Origin: Arthrobacter globiformis
GTDB lineage: Bacteria > Actinomycetota > Actinomycetes > Actinomycetales > Micrococcaceae
Direction of reading: 5' to 3'
DNA length: 64,000 nt
Assembly: GCF_003261175.1 (NCBI RefSeq)
Contig: NZ_QLNP01000034.1
Span: forward strand, 1-64,000
Shown: one piece after another, positions 227-8,836 of the stretch
Numbering within the stretch: the first letter of the stretch is position 1
Layout of the letters: each line of letters opens with the position of its first letter
The notes under the pieces: model-generated
Databases searched by the model: none
The model's input: the letters and a program-made list of their open reading frames with translations, nothing else
Told to the model about the DNA's origin: nothing
Program-made: the position numbers and the translations under genes

Positions 227-3200
227 GTGAAATCAGCAGGAAAAAGCTTATTCCCAAGCCGGGGGGCAGGGAAAGCAGTGGCACTGGTTGTCGGCTTGCC
301 TTTGCTTCTTTCGTCAGTCGGCGCGCTGCCGGCCACCGCGGCGCCGTCGCAGGTTGCGGCTACGGCCGCTCAGCAAAAAAACGTCGACCCCAACGACTAC
401 TCGGCCGGCCGCTACATTGTGGTCCTGACCGAGAAGCCCGCAGCCACCTACGAGGGCGGCACTCCCGGCCTGCAGGCCACAAAGCCGCGGTCCGGCCACA
501 AACTCGACGCCGACCGGGCAGAGGTGCGCAAGTACCAGGCCCACCTGGAGGCGAAGCAGGCCGCGCTGGCTGAGAAGGAACACGTGCAGATCCGCCGCAA
601 ATACACGGCGGCACTCAACGGATTCACCGCCAGGCTTACCGCCGACCAGGCCGTGAACCTCGCCAAGAGCCCAGAGGTCCTCGCGGTGGCACCCGACACC
701 CAGCAGGCCCCGGACTATTCCACCACGGACTTCCTTAAGCTGAGCGGAGCCTATGGCACGTGGAACAGGCAGTTCGGCGGCAAGGCCGGCGCCGGCAAGG
801 GCGTTGTGGTGGGCGTCATCGACTCCGGCTACACGCCGGGCAGCCAGTTCTTCGCCGGCAATGAGGTTGCACAACTCAAGGGCAATCCGCAGGTAGGTGT
901 TCCCTACCGCACCGCCGGCGGCAACATCGCGATGCTGAAAGCCGACGGCAGCACCTTCGAGGGCGAGTGCCAGAAAGGTGAGGAGTTTAACGGAACGGCC
1001 TGCAACTCCAAGGTCCTCAGTGCCAGGTACTTCTCCGACGCGTTCGAGGATTCCGTGGCCAAGCAGGACCGGGCGCCGGAGGAACTGATTTCGCCGGTGG
1101 ACGTGGGAAGCCACGGAACCCACACGGCAAGCACCGCGGCCGGCAACGCCGACGTGGAAACCTTCGTCGACGGCCGAAGCTTCGGCCTGACCGGCGGCAT
1201 CGCACCGGCCGCCAAGCTTGCCAGCTACAAGATCTGCTGGGAGGACAACGATCCCAACACCGGCGGCTGCTATACCTCGGCCGCTGTCGACGCCATCAAC
1301 CAGGCTGTGCTCGACGGCGTGGATGTCCTGAACTACTCGATTTCCGGCACCACCTCCACCACCACGGACCCGGTGTCCATGGCGTTCCTGTCCGCCGCAT
1401 CAGCCGGCATCTTCGTGGCCACGTCCGCGGGCAACTCCGGCCCCATAGCCAGCACCGTGAACCACGGCGAGCCGTGGGTTACCACTGTTGCGGCCAGCAG
1501 TTTCTCCCAGGAACTGCAGGGCACCGTGGAGTTCTCTGACGGCAGCAAGTTCCGCGGCGCCAGCATCATGAACCGTGAAGTTGCCGGCGCGGGCGTTGTG
1601 CTCGCGGCCAATGCAGCATCCGGACAGGCCGCCGATCCTGCACTCTGCGCCCCCGGTTCCGTCGACCCTGCCAAGATCGCCGGCAAGGTGGTGGTCTGCG
1701 ACCGGGGCGTCTATGACCGCGTGGCCAAGAGCGCCGAGGTTGCGCGGGGCGGCGGGGTGGGCATGATCCTCGTGAACCTGGCCGCATCGTCGCTCGACGC
1801 CGACAAGCACTCCGTCCCCACCGTGCACGTGAACCCGCCTGCCACGGAAACCATCAAGGCGAAGGTGACGGCGAACCCGGCCATCACGGTCTCCCTGGTC
1901 AACAGGGACACCACGGGACTGCCTGCCGAGGCGCAGCCGCAGATCGCGGGCTTCTCCTCCCGCGGACCGCTCCTCGCCACCGACTCTGACCTGCTGAAGC
2001 CCGACGTCGCCGCACCCGGCGTCGCCGTCCTGGCCGGCGTATCACCGATCGGCGCCGGCGGCGACGAGTTCGGGTTCATGTCCGGCACCTCCATGGCGTC
2101 GCCCCACGTGGCCGGTTTCGGTGCCCTCATCCTGGGCAAGAACCCCGCCTGGTCCCCGGCCGCCGTGAAGTCGGCCATGATGACCACCGCCAGCGACGTC
2201 AAGCTCGCAGACGGCAGCAAGAACACGGACGTCCTCGCCACCGGCGCGGGTCAGGTGGATCCTGCCCGTGTCCTGGATCCTGGCCTCGTGTACGACGCCA
2301 CCACCGACGATTACCTGCGGTTCATCCAGGGGACCGGCATGGACCTCGGCATGCCCGGGCTCGGCAGTACGCGGTCCCGCGACATGAACGTCCCGTCCTT
2401 CTCACTGGGAAACCTGGCAGGCAGGATCGAGGTCACCCGCACGGTGACGGCGCTGACGCCGGGAGTGTACCGCGCCAAGGCCAGCGTGCCGGGAGTGAAG
2501 GTGACGGTGACGCCGTCGGTCCTGTCCTTCAGCGCGGCCGGTGAGAAGCGCACGTTCAAGGTGGCCTTTGAAAACCAAAATGCGAAGTTGGGCAAGTTCG
2601 CCGCGGGTTCCCTCACCTGGCAGGGGGCCAACAAGACCGTGACCTCGCCCATTGCGGTGCGGCCGCAGTCGGTGCTTGCTCCCAAGAATATTGCGTTCAC
2701 CTCCCAGGGTGCCAACGGTTCCGGGAACATCGGCATCGTCTCGGGCTCAAACTCGCGCACGAACGTGACGCTCGACGGCCTGTCGAAGGCGGACTCCTCG
2801 GCCATCGAGCTCGTACCCGGTCCCTTCCGGTACGAGGCCGACGCCTCGAACTTCGTCAAGAAGGTGGAAGTTCCGGCCGGCGTGCCCCTGGCCAAGCTGT
2901 CCGTGATTTCCGCGGATGAGAACGCCGACTTCGACATGGTGGTGGTCACGCCGGCCGGGCAGGCAATTGTGGTGGCCACGGCCTCGGCAAGTGAGTCCGT
3001 GTCGATTCCGAACCCTGCTGCCGGTACCTACCGGATGTTCGTGAATCTCTTCGACAGTCCCAACCAGCAGGCAACCAAGGCCTCGGTGGATGCTGCGGTC
3101 CTGGGCGCGAATGAGGGCAACGCCACCGTGACTCCTGACCCGGTCCGCCTTGCGAACGGGCTCAGCGGGAAGCTCGCCCTCACCTGGAAGAACCTGGCCC

Positions 3201-3382
3201 CCGGCTCCTATATCGGGCGGATCACCTTCGACGGGTCCAGCGCCCCGACGTTCGTGAGCGTCGTGGTGGCGGAGGGCGGCGCCGTCGCGGTTGCACCGGC
3301 TTCGGAAGATCCGAAGAAAAAGAAGGAACGGGGGAAGGTCCAGAACCAGGACCTGACGCGGTCACCGGATAACTCCATCTAG
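227..3382 (+). CDS. Secreted S8 (subtilisin-like) serine protease, long form
   Basis: Predicted exported subtilase. GTG start at 227 preceded by AGGAAAGG at 207-214; the first ~40 residues look like a Sec signal (basic start, hydrophobic core, ATAAPS). An Inhibitor_I9-like propeptide follows (about residues 60-160, ending GFTARL..VLAVAPD). The catalytic triad is visible: Asp199 (VIDSGYTPG), His296 (GSHGTHTAS), Ser622 (SGTSMASPHVAG), with oxyanion Asn403 (SAGNSGP). A PA-type insert lies between Asn403 and Ser622 (VVCDRGVYDRVAKS, GVGMILVN). An Fn3-like domain follows, then about 250 further residues resembling a pre-peptidase C-terminal beta domain, and a lysine-rich tail. It is a paralogue of the protease at 5794-8238, which stops after the Fn3-like part. 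Function as an extracellular protease is a confident family inference; the substrate is unknown. It is convergent with the inhibitor operon. Confidence 0.95.
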   Translation: MKSAGKSLFPSRGAGKAVALVVGLPLLLSSVGALPATAAPSQVAATAAQQKNVDPNDYSAGRYIVVLTEKPAATYEGGTPGLQATKPRSGHKLDADRAEVRKYQAHLEAKQAALAEKEHVQIRRKYTAALNGFTARLTADQAVNLAKSPEVLAVAPDTQQAPDYSTTDFLKLSGAYGTWNRQFGGKAGAGKGVVVGVIDSGYTPGSQFFAGNEVAQLKGNPQVGVPYRTAGGNIAMLKADGSTFEGECQKGEEFNGTACNSKVLSARYFSDAFEDSVAKQDRAPEELISPVDVGSHGTHTASTAAGNADVETFVDGRSFGLTGGIAPAAKLASYKICWEDNDPNTGGCYTSAAVDAINQAVLDGVDVLNYSISGTTSTTTDPVSMAFLSAASAGIFVATSAGNSGPIASTVNHGEPWVTTVAASSFSQELQGTVEFSDGSKFRGASIMNREVAGAGVVLAANAASGQAADPALCAPGSVDPAKIAGKVVVCDRGVYDRVAKSAEVARGGGVGMILVNLAASSLDADKHSVPTVHVNPPATETIKAKVTANPAITVSLVNRDTTGLPAEAQPQIAGFSSRGPLLATDSDLLKPDVAAPGVAVLAGVSPIGAGGDEFGFMSGTSMASPHVAGFGALILGKNPAWSPAAVKSAMMTTASDVKLADGSKNTDVLATGAGQVDPARVLDPGLVYDATTDDYLRFIQGTGMDLGMPGLGSTRSRDMNVPSFSLGNLAGRIEVTRTVTALTPGVYRAKASVPGVKVTVTPSVLSFSAAGEKRTFKVAFENQNAKLGKFAAGSLTWQGANKTVTSPIAVRPQSVLAPKNIAFTSQGANGSGNIGIVSGSNSRTNVTLDGLSKADSSAIELVPGPFRYEADASNFVKKVEVPAGVPLAKLSVISADENADFDMVVVTPAGQAIVVATASASESVSIPNPAAGTYRMFVNLFDSPNQQATKASVDAAVLGANEGNATVTPDPVRLANGLSGKLALTWKNLAPGSYIGRITFDGSSAPTFVSVVVAEGGAVAVAPASEDPKKKKERGKVQNQDLTRSPDNSI

Positions 3383-3420
3383 GAAGGTCCCGGAACCGGG
3401 CTCCCGAAGGGGCCCCACAG

Positions 3421-3468
3421 CGAAGGCCGGCGGGCATGGCGCAATTGCCAAGGTCCCGCCGGCCTTCG
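3421..3468. terminator. Hairpin terminator between convergent genes
   Basis: A perfect 14-bp inverted repeat (arms 3421-3434 and 3455-3468, core GGCCGGCGGG) with a smaller inner repeat TGGC..GCCA. It lies 39 bases after the protease stop and 83 bases past the end of the convergent gene at 3552, so it could end transcription from both sides. There is no long T run, as is usual in actinobacteria. Confidence 0.7.
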
Positions 3469-3551
3469 CCGTGCCAAGCTTCCGTCCGGTCGCCCCCCGC
3501 ATTCCCTGGACCGCGGCCAAGGATGCACGGCAGGTCAGATCTCGCAGGGGC

Positions 3552-3959
3552 TTAGATGGCGCCCGTGGACCCGGCGACCCCGCCCAGCAGCGGGGATAGC
3601 GCCCGCCAACGGGCAATTTCACAGCCGTCCGTCATGGAAAAGCGGGAGTTCACAGTGCGCCCGTTGAACGTGCCGGTGACCACGGCCACCTGAGGGCCGC
3701 CGTACTGCTGGGTGCACAGCTTGGGCGGGCCCGGTTCGGGGAAAAAGATCCGTTCGCCGAAGCGTCCGACGGCGGCAATCGCCGCCGCGGGATCCGGCAG
3801 GGTTGATTCCACCAGTAGTCCGGAACGGCTGACCAGGACAAAGACGTGTTCCGGGCCGCCCGGGGCGTGGGTGAGGGCGACGGTCAGTTCAAGGTCTGCT
3901 TCCGGAGGCAGGTCCGCGTCCGGGCCTGCGCCTGGGAATGGAGGTGCGCCGCTCATCAT
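3552..3959 (-). CDS. SSI-like domain protein without signal peptide (putative intracellular protease inhibitor)
   Basis: 135 residues. The C-terminal half carries the hallmark of the Streptomyces subtilisin inhibitor family: a cysteine followed by QQYGGPQVAVVTG, a second beta strand, then DGCEIARW. It aligns closely with the lipoprotein at 4914-5552 (LCTQQYGGPQVAVVTG against SCTQQYGGPQLATVTG). Unlike that protein it has no signal peptide or lipobox, and the first SSI cysteine pair is absent (LVS where the other has LVC). That fits a protein folded in the reducing cytoplasm. The ATG at 3959 overlaps the stop of the upstream gene (ATGA), so translation is probably coupled. By eye, the position of the SSI P1 residue is Gln. 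Inhibitory activity is inferred, not shown; it could be a degenerate SSI fold with another role. Confidence 0.7.
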   Translation of the reverse strand: MMSGAPPFPGAGPDADLPPEADLELTVALTHAPGGPEHVFVLVSRSGLLVESTLPDPAAAIAAVGRFGERIFFPEPGPPKLCTQQYGGPQVAVVTGTFNGRTVNSRFSMTDGCEIARWRALSPLLGGVAGSTGAI

Positions 3960-4909
3960 TCGGTCTCCGTTCCAAGGCTGCCAAGGAGCGGCACGAGGGC
4001 GGCCATGAGCCTGCCGCGGAGCTCCTGCGCTTCGGCCGAGAAGGCGCGCTGCTGCTCCACGTAAGCAGCCTTGCCGTCGGGGGTCTCAATCGGAATGGCC
4101 GGGTAGCCCCAGTCTGTGAGGTCATAGGGCGAGGCCTGCATGTCCATGGCCCGCACCCGCCACGACAGCTCAAAGCAGTCCATAACGAGTTCGCTGGGCA
4201 GAGCCGGGGAGAGCTTGTATGCCCACTTGTAGAGGTCCATGTTGGCGTGCAGGCAGCCGGGCTGCTCCATGGTCCGCTGGTTCTCGCGGCTGGGGGAAAG
4301 CTCGTTGAGGGGCACGGCGTCGGGTGTGTAGAACCGGAACGCGTCGAAGTGCGAGCAGCGGATCCTGTTGTCCTCGACCACCTTGTCCGTGCCCGCGCCG
4401 CCCAGCCGCAGTTTAAGGTACTCGTGGCGCAGCTCGAACTTCTCCTGCCGGTAGACCATGGCCCACTCGTGCAGGCCGAAGCAGCCGAACTGCGCGGGCC
4501 GCGCGGCTGTTCTGGCCAGAATGATCCGGGCAAACAGGAGGGCCTCGCGCCGTTCGGCCAGGAACGACTGACGGTCGAACGCCACCGCGGTGCTGCCGGG
4601 CGGGAGGCCGGCGCGGGCCAGCTCACCGCCGTCGAGCGCTTTGTAGTATTTCCAGTCCCTGCGGGCAGCCGCCTCCATTCCGGAGAGGACCACACCGTCA
4701 CCGGGATGCCAGCGCAGCAGTTGGCCTGGCTTTTGCGTGTAGTACGTGAAGAGGAAGTCCTCCACGGGATGCTTCCGCCCCGCGGAGCGGCGGGCAAGGT
4801 AGGGATCGGCGTAACGGCGTACCCGGCGCACGTGAGCGGCTTCCCGTCCCGTCCAGTCAGCAGGGCGGAGGACCTGGGCGGCGGGGATCGTCAATGGAGT
4901 ACCTGCCAC
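3956..4909 (-). CDS. Conserved protein, often named 3-methyladenine DNA glycosylase in actinobacteria
   Basis: About 317 residues. I chose the GTG at 4909, just past the stop of the upstream gene (4914); the frame is open further upstream, but that part overlaps the lipoprotein gene and reads like a shadow. The N-terminal motif PYLARRSAGRKHPVEDFLFTYY followed by KPGQLLRWHPG is typical of a conserved actinobacterial family that many annotations call 3-methyladenine DNA glycosylase. I see no helix-hairpin-helix or other diagnostic glycosylase motif, so the enzymatic name is weak. It is the middle gene of a three-gene operon between two SSI-like genes and overlaps the next one by ATGA. Why a DNA-repair-like gene sits between inhibitors is unexplained. 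Confidence 0.6.
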   Translation of the reverse strand: MAGTPLTIPAAQVLRPADWTGREAAHVRRVRRYADPYLARRSAGRKHPVEDFLFTYYTQKPGQLLRWHPGDGVVLSGMEAAARRDWKYYKALDGGELARAGLPPGSTAVAFDRQSFLAERREALLFARIILARTAARPAQFGCFGLHEWAMVYRQEKFELRHEYLKLRLGGAGTDKVVEDNRIRCSHFDAFRFYTPDAVPLNELSPSRENQRTMEQPGCLHANMDLYKWAYKLSPALPSELVMDCFELSWRVRAMDMQASPYDLTDWGYPAIPIETPDGKAAYVEQQRAFSAEAQELRGRLMAALVPLLGSLGTETE

Positions 4910-4913
4910 GGTG

Positions 4914-5552
4914 CTAAAGAGCCCCGCCTGCAGCACCGAGAATCTCCTTGGCGGCGTTCCAGGCTCCGATCTGGCAGCCGTCCAGCAGGGCGAAGGAGGT
5001 CTCCACGGGGGTGCCATTGACTTCGCCGGTCACGGTGGCCAACTGCGGGCCGCCATACTGCTGCGTGCAGGAGATACCCTTTGGCGGCGCGGCAGGGTTC
5101 ACGATGGCTGCGTTGTCCTTCAGTGACGTGCAAGCTGCTGCGGCGTTGGGGTGCTGGCTCTCTGCCATCGCCGCGCCGCCCTTGCAGACCAGCGTGTAAT
5201 TGGCGGCCTTGCCGTCCTTCGACGCTTTGACCGTGATGGACAGTTCGGCATCGCCGGCGCCGGGCCCGGACGGCAGGGGGGAAGCGGCAGGGGGTGCGGG
5301 CGCCGGGACGGTCGTTTCGGCGTCGGGCGGTGTGGAGCCGGGCGCCGGAGTACTGGAAGTGCCGGTGCCGGGGGTTTCAGTGCCCGGAGTTTCGGTGCCC
5401 GGCGAAGAAGTCCCGGGCGATGACGTCCCCGGCGAGCCGGTGGTGGCCCCGGGGGTGGCCGAAGGCTGGCCGGTTCCGGTGTTCGGGGTGCAGGCCGCGA
5501 GACCGCCCGTCGCCGCGAGGGCGAGCAGCACAGAAATCAGTTGCTTGCGCAT
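4914..5552 (-). CDS. Lipoprotein with SSI-like (subtilisin inhibitor) domain
   Basis: 212 residues from the ATG at 5552, which has GAGGAG about 8 bases upstream; a TTG 15 bases further up is less likely. Residues 1-21 form a lipoprotein signal ending LAAC, with the lipidated cysteine at 21. A linker rich in Thr, Ser, Pro and Gly follows (repeats such as GTSSP and GTETP). The SSI-like domain is in the last ~110 residues, with all four expected cysteines: LVC..AAAC for the first disulfide, then SCTQQYGGPQ..DGCQIGAW for the second. The position of the SSI reactive bond (P1-P1') reads Gln-Gln by eye, and the loop YGGP is one residue longer than the YDP of the Streptomyces protein. Membrane anchoring would place it where the two flanking exported S8 proteases emerge. 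It heads the operon 5552 to 3552. Confidence 0.75.
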   Translation of the reverse strand: MRKQLISVLLALAATGGLAACTPNTGTGQPSATPGATTGSPGTSSPGTSSPGTETPGTETPGTGTSSTPAPGSTPPDAETTVPAPAPPAASPLPSGPGAGDAELSITVKASKDGKAANYTLVCKGGAAMAESQHPNAAAACTSLKDNAAIVNPAAPPKGISCTQQYGGPQLATVTGEVNGTPVETSFALLDGCQIGAWNAAKEILGAAGGAL

Positions 5553-5793
5553 GCCGGGTCTCCTCAAGTTTTTCCCATTCTACCGTCGGGGCCCCATGCC
5601 GTCCGGTACAGCCGGATAACGGTACCGGGCAATTGCTAACGGAAGGGTATCGATTCTTGGGGGCGTCCGCGGTATCTTTCTGACATCAACGGGTGCGCGG
5701 CATAACCAAATAGTGATGACGCCCATGGGGGGCAGAGCGTCCAGTTCGTGGGACCGAAGGTCTACAGGTCCTGAACCAAGGAAGGCATCCCCC

Positions 5794-8238
5794 ATGATCC
5801 CTCAGCAATCCACTACCCGCCCCGGACAAGGCAGCAGGTTGCCGGCCGTCTTCGCCGTCGCCCTTGCCATGGTCATCGGCCAGGGCCTCGCCGGACCAAC
5901 GGCGGCGGCTCCCGCACCTGCATCGGCGCAGCCGGCAGTTCTCCAGCCAACCGCCGCCCAGCCGGCGGCATCGCCGCTCAACGACGGCCACTACATCGTG
6001 ATGCTCAAGGACAAGCCGCTGGCCACCTACTCCGGCGGCGTCCCGGGCATCCCGGGCACGGCGGTGCCGAAGGGCAAGAAGCTGAACCCCTCCGGTCCCA
6101 ACTCCCGCAAATACGATACTCACCTCAGGGCCAAGCAGCAACGGGCGGCAGCATCCAGGGGCGTGACCATCAACAGGAGCTACACCCTGGCAATCAACGG
6201 CTTCAGCGCTGTACTCTCCGCGGCGCAGGCCAAGGCGCTCGCCGGTGACAGCAGCGTGCTGGCCGTGGTCCCCGACAGCATGCGCAAGCCGGATTACTCG
6301 AGCACCGACTTCCTTGGACTTCCCGGCGGCGACGGCGTGTGGAACCAGCAGTTCGGCGGCACGGATGAGGCGGGCAAGGGCGTCGTCGTGGGCGTGGTGG
6401 ACACCGGCTACACGCCCGACAACCCGTTCTTCACGGGGGACACCGTCGATCCGCTGTCCGGCACCCCGGACGTGGGCGTGCCGTACCACCTCCAGGGCAA
6501 CGTGATCGCGATGCGGAAGGCCAACGGTGGAACCTTCGTGGGTGACTGCGTGGCCGGAGACGGTTTCGACGGCACGGAATGCAACAGCAAGGTCATCGGC
6601 GCCAGGTTCTACGACAAGGCCTACAAGGCGGCGGTCCCGCCGGAATTCCGGTCCCCGAACGAGAAGTTCTCGCCGCTGGACGTTAACGGCCACGGATCCC
6701 ACACGGGCAGCACGGCAGCCGGAAACAGTGGCGTCGCCCAGACGGCAGGCGGCCGGGACTTTGGCAAGAGCTCAGGCGTTGCGCCGGCGGCCAAGATCGC
6801 CGTTTACAAGGTCTGCTGGGAAGGTTCCATTCCTGAGGCTACCGGGTGCGTCGAGTCGGACATTCTCAACGCCATCCAGGATGCGGTCCTCGACGGCGTG
6901 GACGTCCTGAACTTCTCCATCTCGGGAAACAACAACTCCACTGTCGACGCGGTTTCGCTCGCGTTCCTGAATGCCGCGGCCGCAGGGATCTTTGTGGCGG
7001 CCTCCGCCGGCAATTCGGGCCCGACGGTCTCGACCGTCAACCATGCCGGACCCTGGATCACCAGCGTGGCCGCGTCGACGTTCGACAACACGCTGCGCGG
7101 AACCGCCGAACTGTCGGACGGCAGCAAGTTCGCCGGTGCGAGTGTCATGGGCAGCGAGGTGGACGCCAAGCCGATCGTGCTGGCCGTGGACGTGAAAACA
7201 GCCGCCGCCCTGGCTGCAGATGCGGCGCTGTGCGCACCGAACTCCCTGGACCCGGCCAAGGTTGCGGACAAGATTGTCGTCTGCGACCGCGGCGTTGTGG
7301 CACGCGTTGACAAGAGCGCCGAGGTCAAGCGCGCCGGCGGTGTAGGCATGGTCCTGGTCAACCTGACGCCCAGCTCCCTCGACACCGATCTGCACAGTGT
7401 CCCCACGGTTCATCTGGGCGACCCGAAGATCAAGGACCTGGTGGCGGCAACTCCGGGCATGACGGCAAGCCTCAAGGCGACTGACACCACCGGAGCCGCA
7501 CCCCCGCCCGTGCCGCAGATTGCCGGATTCTCCTCACGCGGGCCCACGCTGGCATCCAACGGAGACCTGCTCAAGCCTGACGTTGCGGCTCCTGGCGTGG
7601 CTGTGCTTGCCGCTGTTTCGCCCGTGGGGTTCAAGGGCGAGAATTTCGGCTTCCTGTCCGGCACGTCGATGGCATCGCCGCACATCGCCGGCTCGGGAGC
7701 CCTGCTGCTCGGCAAGAACCCGAAGTGGTCCCCGGCGGCCGTGAAATCCGCCGTCATGACCACGGCCTACGACCTGGTTAATGCGGCAGGCGCCAAAGTG
7801 CATGACGTCTTTGCCCAGGGCGCCGGCCACGTCGATCCGGCCCGGTTCGACTCCCCGGGCCTCGTTTACGACGCCGGCATCAGTGACTGGATGGGCTTCC
7901 TCCAGGGACAGGGAATCGACCTTGGCGTCGCCCCCATCGCGGCCAAGGACGTCAACCTACCCTCGGTGGCACTGGGCGCCATGTCCGGCAGCCAGACCGT
8001 CACGCGGCGGGTCACTGCGATGACGGCAGGAACCTATCGGGCAGCGATTACCCTTCCGGGCATTACAGCCACAGTCAGTCCGGCAGAAGTGACGTTGGCA
8101 GAGGGTGCAAGCGCCACGGTCACCATCACGTTTACTACCGCAGGGGCACCGCTGAACGCGTACTCCACCGGATCGCTGACGTGGACGTCAGGTGACAACA
8201 CCGTCCGCTCACCGGTGGCGGTGCGCCCGGTGCCATAG
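5794..8238 (+). CDS. Secreted S8 (subtilisin-like) serine protease, short form
   Basis: 814 residues from the ATG at 5794, which has AAGGAAGG at 5778-5785; the frame is open from 5713 but lacks a good ribosome site there. Signal peptide (LPAVFAVALAMVIGQGLAG..AAAP), then an I9-like propeptide, then the S8 domain with Asp203 (VVDTGYTPD), His300 (GHGSHTGS) and Ser625 (SGTSMASPHIAG). The PA-type insert (VVCDRGVVARVDKS, GVGMVLVN) and the terminal Fn3-like domain match the protease at 227-3382 region by region, so the two are clear paralogues. This one ends at SPVAVRPVP and lacks the extra ~250-residue C-terminal domain and lysine tail. Its promoter region (5553-5793) is shared with the divergent SSI lipoprotein gene. 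Confidence 0.95.
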   Translation: MIPQQSTTRPGQGSRLPAVFAVALAMVIGQGLAGPTAAAPAPASAQPAVLQPTAAQPAASPLNDGHYIVMLKDKPLATYSGGVPGIPGTAVPKGKKLNPSGPNSRKYDTHLRAKQQRAAASRGVTINRSYTLAINGFSAVLSAAQAKALAGDSSVLAVVPDSMRKPDYSSTDFLGLPGGDGVWNQQFGGTDEAGKGVVVGVVDTGYTPDNPFFTGDTVDPLSGTPDVGVPYHLQGNVIAMRKANGGTFVGDCVAGDGFDGTECNSKVIGARFYDKAYKAAVPPEFRSPNEKFSPLDVNGHGSHTGSTAAGNSGVAQTAGGRDFGKSSGVAPAAKIAVYKVCWEGSIPEATGCVESDILNAIQDAVLDGVDVLNFSISGNNNSTVDAVSLAFLNAAAAGIFVAASAGNSGPTVSTVNHAGPWITSVAASTFDNTLRGTAELSDGSKFAGASVMGSEVDAKPIVLAVDVKTAAALAADAALCAPNSLDPAKVADKIVVCDRGVVARVDKSAEVKRAGGVGMVLVNLTPSSLDTDLHSVPTVHLGDPKIKDLVAATPGMTASLKATDTTGAAPPPVPQIAGFSSRGPTLASNGDLLKPDVAAPGVAVLAAVSPVGFKGENFGFLSGTSMASPHIAGSGALLLGKNPKWSPAAVKSAVMTTAYDLVNAAGAKVHDVFAQGAGHVDPARFDSPGLVYDAGISDWMGFLQGQGIDLGVAPIAAKDVNLPSVALGAMSGSQTVTRRVTAMTAGTYRAAITLPGITATVSPAEVTLAEGASATVTITFTTAGAPLNAYSTGSLTWTSGDNTVRSPVAVRPVP

Positions 8239-8329: not shown

Positions 8330-8836
8330 TCAGCCATGGGCGGAGCCCGTGGCGGCAATCAGGTCCATCATGGACCTATGCAGGCTCTCCACTTGGTCCC
8401 GGCTGAGGCCCAGCTTGGACATCATGGTCACGGGAACTGCAGTGGCCTGCTGGCGGAGGGCGGTCCCCTGCGGAGTCAGGTCCACTGCCAGAGCACGTTC
8501 GTTCCCCTCCACTCGCGTGCGCGTGATGAGGCCCGCCGCTTCCAGGCGCCGCAGAAGAGGCGATATGGTCGCGGGCTCGTGCAGGAGGGCCTGGCTGATA
8601 TCGCGGACCGAGCGCGGGCTGGACTCCCAAAGGCACAGCATGACCAAGTACTGGGGGTGGGTGAGCCCCAGCCTGTCCAGCACGGGCTTGTAGGCGCCCA
8701 CTACGCTGCGCGAGGCGACGGTCAGGGCGAAGCACAGTTGCCGTTCCAGAAGGAGGTCGTCCTGCGCGGAAGCAGGCGTTGCGGCTGTTCCGGCAGTACC
8801 GGCGGCCGTTGATTTCGGGCGGGTAGCGATGAGCAT
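8330..8836 (-). CDS. MarR family transcriptional regulator
   Basis: 168 residues. A winged helix-turn-helix is visible in the middle to C-terminal part (SVRDISQALLHEPATISPLLRRLEAAGLITR, then ALAVDLTPQG), preceded by LGLTHPQYLVMLCLWE, the usual MarR pattern. The ATG at 8836 has AAAGGG about 7 bases upstream. A palindromic site at 8853-8871 lies just upstream of the start and is the likely autoregulatory operator. It may also control the divergent small gene at 8912. The ligand is unknown; MarR proteins of this type often answer to phenolics or oxidants. Confidence 0.93.
   Translation of the reverse strand: MLIATRPKSTAAGTAGTAATPASAQDDLLLERQLCFALTVASRSVVGAYKPVLDRLGLTHPQYLVMLCLWESSPRSVRDISQALLHEPATISPLLRRLEAAGLITRTRVEGNERALAVDLTPQGTALRQQATAVPVTMMSKLGLSRDQVESLHRSMMDLIAATGSAHG

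Follow-up and report, generated by a model that had tools for sequence, protein, structure and literature searches.

The window analysed here comprises positions 1 to 64,000 of the forward strand of contig NZ_QLNP01000034.1 from Arthrobacter globiformis (RefSeq GCF_003261175.1), 64,000 nucleotides in all. Two subtilase genes on the plus strand, S8a and S8b, bracket a tightly spaced operon of three genes on the minus strand: SSIlip, a middle gene and SSI3 (Table 1). The start codon of SSI3 overlaps the stop codon of the middle gene. For SSIlip the open reading frame as listed, 4914-5567, opens at a TTG (5567), and the ATG at 5552 is a better start. The inverted repeat in the gap between the convergent S8a and SSI3 genes is, judging from its sequence, a possible shared terminator. 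A scan of the region 3300-5900 for promoters and terminators picked up a single promoter-like site (shuffles 0.2), which lies within a gene, and a single terminator-like site (shuffles 1.7); we relied on neither.

Table 1. Features of the subtilase/SSI locus in the window.
Feature	Position	Strand	Basis
S8a: exported subtilase, 1051 aa; I9 propeptide, S8 domain with PA insert, fn3_6, weak PPC	227..3382	+	Pfam, active-site motifs
Inverted repeat, perfect, 15 bp; arms 3420-3434 and 3455-3469	3420..3469	.	sequence
SSI3: third gene of the operon, leaderless 2-Cys SSI relative, loop CTQQYGGP; predicted P1 Gln codon 3708-3710	3552..3959	-	
Middle gene: about 318 aa, very conserved; start codon uncertain	3956..4912	-	
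SSIlip: first gene of the operon, lipoprotein signal, tether, 4-Cys SSI domain; predicted P1 Gln codon 5061-5063	4914..5552	-	
S8b: second exported subtilase, C-terminus shorter than that of S8a, accessory	5794..8238	+	Pfam
MarR-family regulator, near the OhrR model (E 1e-37, under the model cut-off)	8330-8836		

Both proteases score above the Pfam cut-offs for Peptidase_S8, Inhibitor_I9, PA and fn3_6, and in both the active-site motifs with Asp, His, Asn and Ser are intact; with the domain and the catalytic Asp/His/Ser in place, S8a and S8b belong to peptidase family S8. Each begins with a hydrophobic N-terminal signal, as judged by eye, and the two are 56% identical over residues 16-814. The description in a first-pass annotation of this DNA, two exported S8 subtilases flanking a minus-strand operon, is borne out, with both enzymes intact by Pfam and motifs.

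The SSIs are a textbook family of inhibitors, and the members characterised so far are, as far as is known, free secreted proteins. The copies at this locus differ from these in that one is a tethered lipoprotein and the other is leaderless and has lost a Cys pair. That the first gene of the operon encodes a lipoprotein, as had been proposed, is supported by a lipobox, MRKQLISVLLALAATGGLAAC (LAAC), which is followed by a linker of ~80 residues rich in Pro, Thr, Ser and Gly, and then by a four-Cys domain. Short SPGT/TPGT repeats occur in the linker (window 5270-5489); it is possible, on the evidence of these repeats, that it serves as a wall tether of variable length. Against the Pfam SSI model (PF00720) the whole SSIlip protein reaches E 1.7e-4 and 21.9 bits, under the cut-off of 23.9, which is exceeded by the isolated domain (24.5 bits) and by the protein in the genome frame (24.4 bits); among the members of its family (alignment A1), 20 of 22 match the model at E<=0.01. 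A PDB search with the A1 profile retrieves SSI structures, among them 2sic and 3ssi, at E 7.8e-7 to 2.5e-5, and the domain, its cysteines and the position of its reactive loop align with those of 2sic/3ssi. In this alignment CTQ/QY falls on CPM/VY of SSI, whose Met we take to be the P1 residue; in the genus the SSIlip loop is mostly C-T-[QME]-Q-Y-G-G-P, as against C-P-M-V-Y-D-P in SSI. The four Cys columns are invariant in all 22 rows of A1, and would accommodate both disulphide pairs of SSI, presumably Cys35-50 and Cys71-101. Of 41 four-Cys copies in the genus, 35 have a signal-like segment, and the P1 position is occupied by Gln in 26, Met in 10 and Glu in 5, where one of the Gln rows is the frame-split third gene of locus L086, misfiled by its Cys count. 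SSIlip is under purifying selection (median dN/dS 0.14, 16 pairs).

Neither the SSI3 protein of the window nor any of 11 members of its family (at E<=0.01) matches the Pfam SSI model. The HMM check that had been suggested for both small proteins thus came out in favour of SSIlip as a domain or in the genome frame, and not of whole SSIlip or of SSI3. The profile of the SSI3 family (A2) matches A1 with a probability of 100% and E 2e-43; alone, it reaches only E 0.07-0.4 against the solved SSIs. Because A2 matches A1, and A1 matches the SSI crystal sequences, the block CTQQYGGP..DGC that the two genes share reflects homology and not chance, and the first and third genes of the operon are indeed SSI relatives, as the initial reading had it. 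SSI3 is without the first SSI Cys pair, only the loop pair being conserved, which leaves it one short of the two disulphide pairs of the family. A signal-like segment was found in 0 of 39 copies of the genus; since SSI3 is leaderless, extracellular action cannot be assumed for it, and in this respect the first-pass interpretation is not supported as it stands. The loop reads CTQQYGGP in 39 of 39 genus copies. In the named set of third-gene matches, which counts the sole SSI of L214, L215, L217 and L218 as third gene, P1 is Gln in 79 of 80 and Glu in 1. SSI3 is also under purifying selection (median dN/dS 0.13, 17 pairs), and its nearest relatives among the named loci are in Arthrobacter sp. 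ISL-65 (91%) and A. globiformis (89%). Genes of SSI3 type with no S8a-type protease found are present in the genera g18 (G117) and g28 (G155, G212), and in both g28 loci SSI3 lies apart from any middle gene in the stretch. In genus g19 (L131 and L132, both loci read) the third gene is an open frame adjoining S8a, with neither cysteines nor a CTQQY loop.

The middle gene has no match in Pfam or NCBIfam, and its comparison with solved structures gives only E 0.08 to 0.57. It is a conserved neighbour of the SSI genes, with a mean column identity of 74% over the 25 rows of alignment A4; this, like the missing signal peptide of SSI3, is a point that the first-pass annotation had not brought up. Of five plasmid records, one annotates a relative as 3-methyladenine DNA glycosylase, and an Arthrobacter plasmid stretch that we looked at has no annotated feature.

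We compared the locus in 40 stretches of the genus (L059-L098). Their gene order is S8a - SSI3 - middle gene - SSIlip - MarR, followed by aspartokinase - recR - dnaX where the stretch reaches that far. All 101 genomes examined from the genus gave a match to SSIlip, and all 40 loci contain a match to the MarR-family regulator and at least one S8 protease in the stretch. The slot beside SSI3 is filled by S8a in 39 of the 40 loci, while S8b occurs in 5; the conserved unit is therefore one protease with two SSIs, and S8b is a local extra. The bracket of two proteases, which the first-pass annotation had regarded as the system, is ruled out as a conserved unit and is incidental.

In the family as a whole, SSIlip was matched in 111 of 197 genomes and 22 of 32 genera; matches to the low-complexity linker (E above 1e-5) were left out of the linkage count, which removes 4 of the 111 genomes and leaves 107. 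S8a-type proteases (E<=1e-100) were found in 72 family genomes. Both were found in 54, and lie within 10 kb of each other in 52 of these and within 2 kb in 47, across nine genera; the two exceptions to the 10-kb linkage are G134, with a distant paralogue on another contig, and G234, where the distance is 15 kb. An SSI with no S8a-type protease found was recorded in 53 of the 107 SSI-bearing genomes, where at most four S8a-type candidates were scored per genome and 'not found' is no proof of absence; S8a with no SSI found was recorded in 18 genomes of two genera (g4, g14), with the same reservation for an SSI search that scored at most fifteen candidates per genome. In the four stretches inspected among these 18 genomes S8a is near the middle gene. 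Among 40 family loci outside the genus, S8a is near the SSI in 22 and not in 18. Over 80 loci the middle gene is in the SSI stretch more often (75) than S8a (61), so that part of the linkage is inherited gene order.

A class-wide search gave an SSI match in 72 of 296 genomes, and stretches from part of these 72 were examined. In the first 20 neighbourhoods from other families weak S8 matches were seen in two, and a Pfam scan of the neighbours then revealed the SSI-S8 pair of genus g55 described below, after which 20 further stretches were added. In a search with a three-sequence profile and phmmer (E<=1e-4), 37 of 40 SSI stretches of other families, some of them short and at least two places represented twice, were without S8, and only the three g55 stretches showed one. 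The first-pass annotation had named the wide occurrence of SSI-like genes away from S8 proteases as a reason to abandon its protease/inhibitor reading, and in part this is what is seen, in 53 of 107 family genomes and in 37 of 40 stretches of other families. The linkage that it proposed recurs nonetheless and survives rearrangement (52 of 54 genomes within 10 kb, and the cases of g24 and g55 below), even if it does not extend to the 53 genomes. A link between SSI and S8 does exist, without being obligate.

Evidence beyond gene order comes from two genera and from evolutionary distances. In g24, S8a adjoins an SSI in 7 of 8 genomes, and the middle gene is on another contig or more than 280 kb away; in the eighth genome no S8a-type protease was found, and its four-Cys SSI is beside the middle gene. 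All 7 of the S8a-linked g24 SSIs (L251-L256, L258) are of the two-Cys third-gene type, two of them near-identical, and the three g24 SSIs placed in the tree fall within the third-gene clade (100/98); this tree used 88 of 128 rows, and in it L136 and L258 are one g24 gene. By eye, lipoprotein signals are present in 7 of 7; our signal-segment rule missed one of three g24 copies (L137), in which the signal is plain to the eye. Export has therefore either been given up in one of the two lineages or acquired in the other. The g24 loops vary, with Gln in 2, Glu in 1 and Asp in 4 at P1, and the unchanging CTQQYGGP loop is thus confined to the genus of the window. In g55, a genus of family f19, an SSI lies directly upstream of a different subtilase on the same strand in 3 of 3 genomes (L221:9468-12427, L224:7523-10424, L269:5236-8411). 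The loop of this SSI is CTYIYGGP or CTFIYGGP, with Tyr or Phe at P1, and the one g55 subtilase that was scanned has I9, S8 and Big_3_5 domains. The g55 pair is one evolutionary event, and an independent one.

We also calculated the correlation between evolutionary distances for the 30 of 40 genus loci that have all seven genes in the stretch. With aspartokinase and recR removed, the SSI3 and S8a distances retain a partial correlation (r = 0.38, p = 0.001), which is 0.33 (p = 0.003) if the middle gene is also removed. SSIlip and S8a do not co-vary (partial r = 0.005). The middle gene and MarR, both without an expected role, yield partial r values of 0.26 and 0.24 with S8a, and SSI3 tracks SSIlip (0.60) more than S8a. 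Co-transfer of neighbours could be behind part of the SSI3-S8a co-variation.

From the protein families, the topology signals, the conservation, and the linkage with its persistence, we infer inhibition, the identity of the target and a division between compartments. A protease/inhibitor reading of the locus is plausible, and these data support it in part; that the locus consists of a secreted subtilase with SSI-family inhibitors that guard the producer in two compartments is in our judgment an evenly balanced proposition. According to this reading S8a, which carries a signal and a propeptide, would be exported as a zymogen. SSIlip would leave the cell, receive its lipid and stay attached to the outer membrane surface by a tether that may be long enough to enter the wall, and there would block protease lingering at the surface by the standard SSI mechanism, through an exposed loop with Gln, Met or Glu at P1. 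SSI3, its signal peptide and one Cys pair lost and its loop kept, would remain in the cytoplasm, where it might block any protease that folds or becomes active ahead of export, as is thought for the staphostatins and Spi. We put forward only tentatively, and with some doubt, the full version, in which self-protection is divided between an SSI tethered outside and a non-exported cytoplasmic sister, convergent with the staphostatins and Spi; one point against a cytoplasmic SSI3 is that its two retained Cys would be unpaired in a reducing environment. Counting against the main reading, besides the SSI-bearing genomes with no S8a-type protease found and the S8a genomes with no SSI found, are the SSI3-type genes of g18 and g28, the lack of co-variation between SSIlip and S8a, an S8a propeptide junction that is independent of P1, and the lipoprotein signals and variable loops of the third-gene type in g24.

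Other explanations must be weighed against this one. The SSIs might inhibit foreign proteases, or other proteases of the producer, and owe their link with S8 to an inherited aspartokinase-recR-dnaX neighbourhood. This would agree with the failure to find an S8a-type protease in 53 of 107 SSI-bearing family genomes, with the 75 of 80 loci that have the SSI beside the middle gene, with the lack of S8 in 37 of 40 stretches of other families, and with the occurrence of S8a without SSI in two genera. We nevertheless consider it rather unlikely, as the g24 S8a keeps an SSI of third-gene type away from the middle gene, the closeness of SSI and S8a is kept in several gene orders, an independent SSI-S8 pair exists in g55, and the co-variation of SSI3 with S8a exceeds that of the middle gene and MarR. 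An extreme form of the argument, in which gene order is all there is and the three kinds of genes are functionally unlinked, draws on the conserved order around aspartokinase, recR and dnaX, on account of which linkage by itself says little inside one genus; it appears very improbable when set against linkage in nine genera, persistence in g24 and the independent g55 pair.

A different possibility concerns SSI3 alone: SSIlip would be an inhibitor, and SSI3 a retired one, whose SSI fold has been reused in the cytoplasm, for example as a partner of the middle gene, with no subtilase to inhibit. Against retirement stand the unchanged would-be inhibitory loop, which reads CTQQYGGP in all 39 copies of the genus, the g24 relatives of SSI3, which are exported and adjoin S8a without the middle gene, and the two g28 loci, where SSI3 lies without a middle gene. 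These observations make retirement quite unlikely in our view, despite the lack of a signal peptide in all 39 SSI3 copies, the loss of one Cys pair, the overlap with the stop codon of the middle gene, the absence of a Pfam match in all 11 members and the disappearance of the loop cysteines, too, in the two g19 loci read, all of which speak in its favour.

Guarding of the producer by an SSI can be compared with several known systems. In Actinosynnema pretiosum, overexpression of SSI genes eased a mycelial fragmentation that was ascribed to the large subtilisin-like peptidase APASM_4178 (PMC7356834); the likeness to the Arthrobacter locus is in a large actinobacterial subtilase with an effect countered by SSI genes. 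The Actinosynnema locus numbers (4178 as compared to 3064 and 6209) suggest that protease and SSI genes are unlinked there, and the accessible part of that report mentions no lipoprotein or leaderless SSI and contains no demonstration of direct inhibition (PMC7356834). The staphostatins (for the staphopains) and Spi (for SpeB) are described, in the accessible text of the source, as being thought to act inside the cell, in the cytoplasm, on secreted cysteine proteases that have become active too early, and in their loci, as in ours, a small inhibitor gene adjoins the gene of the secreted protease (PMC3462683). SSI3 shares with these guards the arrangement of a leaderless inhibitor gene adjoining a secreted protease gene; as an SSI relative beside S8 proteases it would nonetheless fall, by its sequence, outside the staphostatin family proper, which is defined by the staphostatin fold and a staphopain (C47) as target. 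According to the same part of that source the proteases of the staphostatin and Spi loci are cysteine proteases, and the inhibitors are unrelated to SSI and co-transcribed with the protease (PMC3462683), whereas in Arthrobacter a serine subtilase is convergent with the inhibitor gene. Closer to SSIlip in layout, an exported protease adjoins a lipoprotein inhibitor-like gene both in Bacteroides, where staphostatin-like inhibitors of C10 proteases are predicted lipoproteins (PMC3462683), and in Listeria, where Mtz/Tim is a pair of metzincin and TIMP-like lipoprotein (PMC8235301), as far as the accessible portions of the two sources tell. These belong to other protease and inhibitor families, and the same portions make no mention of a second, leaderless inhibitor (PMC3462683, PMC8235301).

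An SSI linked to an exported subtilase is of a known kind; the unusual part of the locus is the leaderless sister, SSI3. A literature search by titles and the starts of abstracts, with few subscription journals, produced no SSI-S8 locus in Micrococcaceae among the matches listed. We know of no cytosolic SSI described before, and SSI3 would be the first, if the assignment is true; also to our knowledge, natural SSI targets are known in few cases. In the exported subtilase that accompanies an SSI in nine genera the locus provides a candidate target, and its two homologous inhibitors are assigned by their sequences to the two faces of the membrane: the question why bacteria keep subtilisin inhibitors becomes directly testable in harmless Arthrobacter strains that can be cultured. 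The loop of SSI3, fixed in the genus while those of the exported copies vary, poses the further question of which functions are open to an SSI whose disulphides are not oxidised.

Some minor observations concern individual loci of the genus and the protease propeptide. The resemblance in the window of DTQQ in S8a to CTQQ in both SSIs prompted us to compare the junction between propeptide and mature enzyme with the P1 residue of the SSIs; co-variation of the two is ruled out, the S8a junction being mostly TENAP or TQ.AP whatever the residue at P1. In L069 and L081 the S8a matches come in two or three pieces, which from their sequences are possibly broken copies of the gene or sequencing errors. 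In L086 the third gene is split across two frames and lies apart from the middle gene; it is likely to be a broken copy, to judge from the frames.
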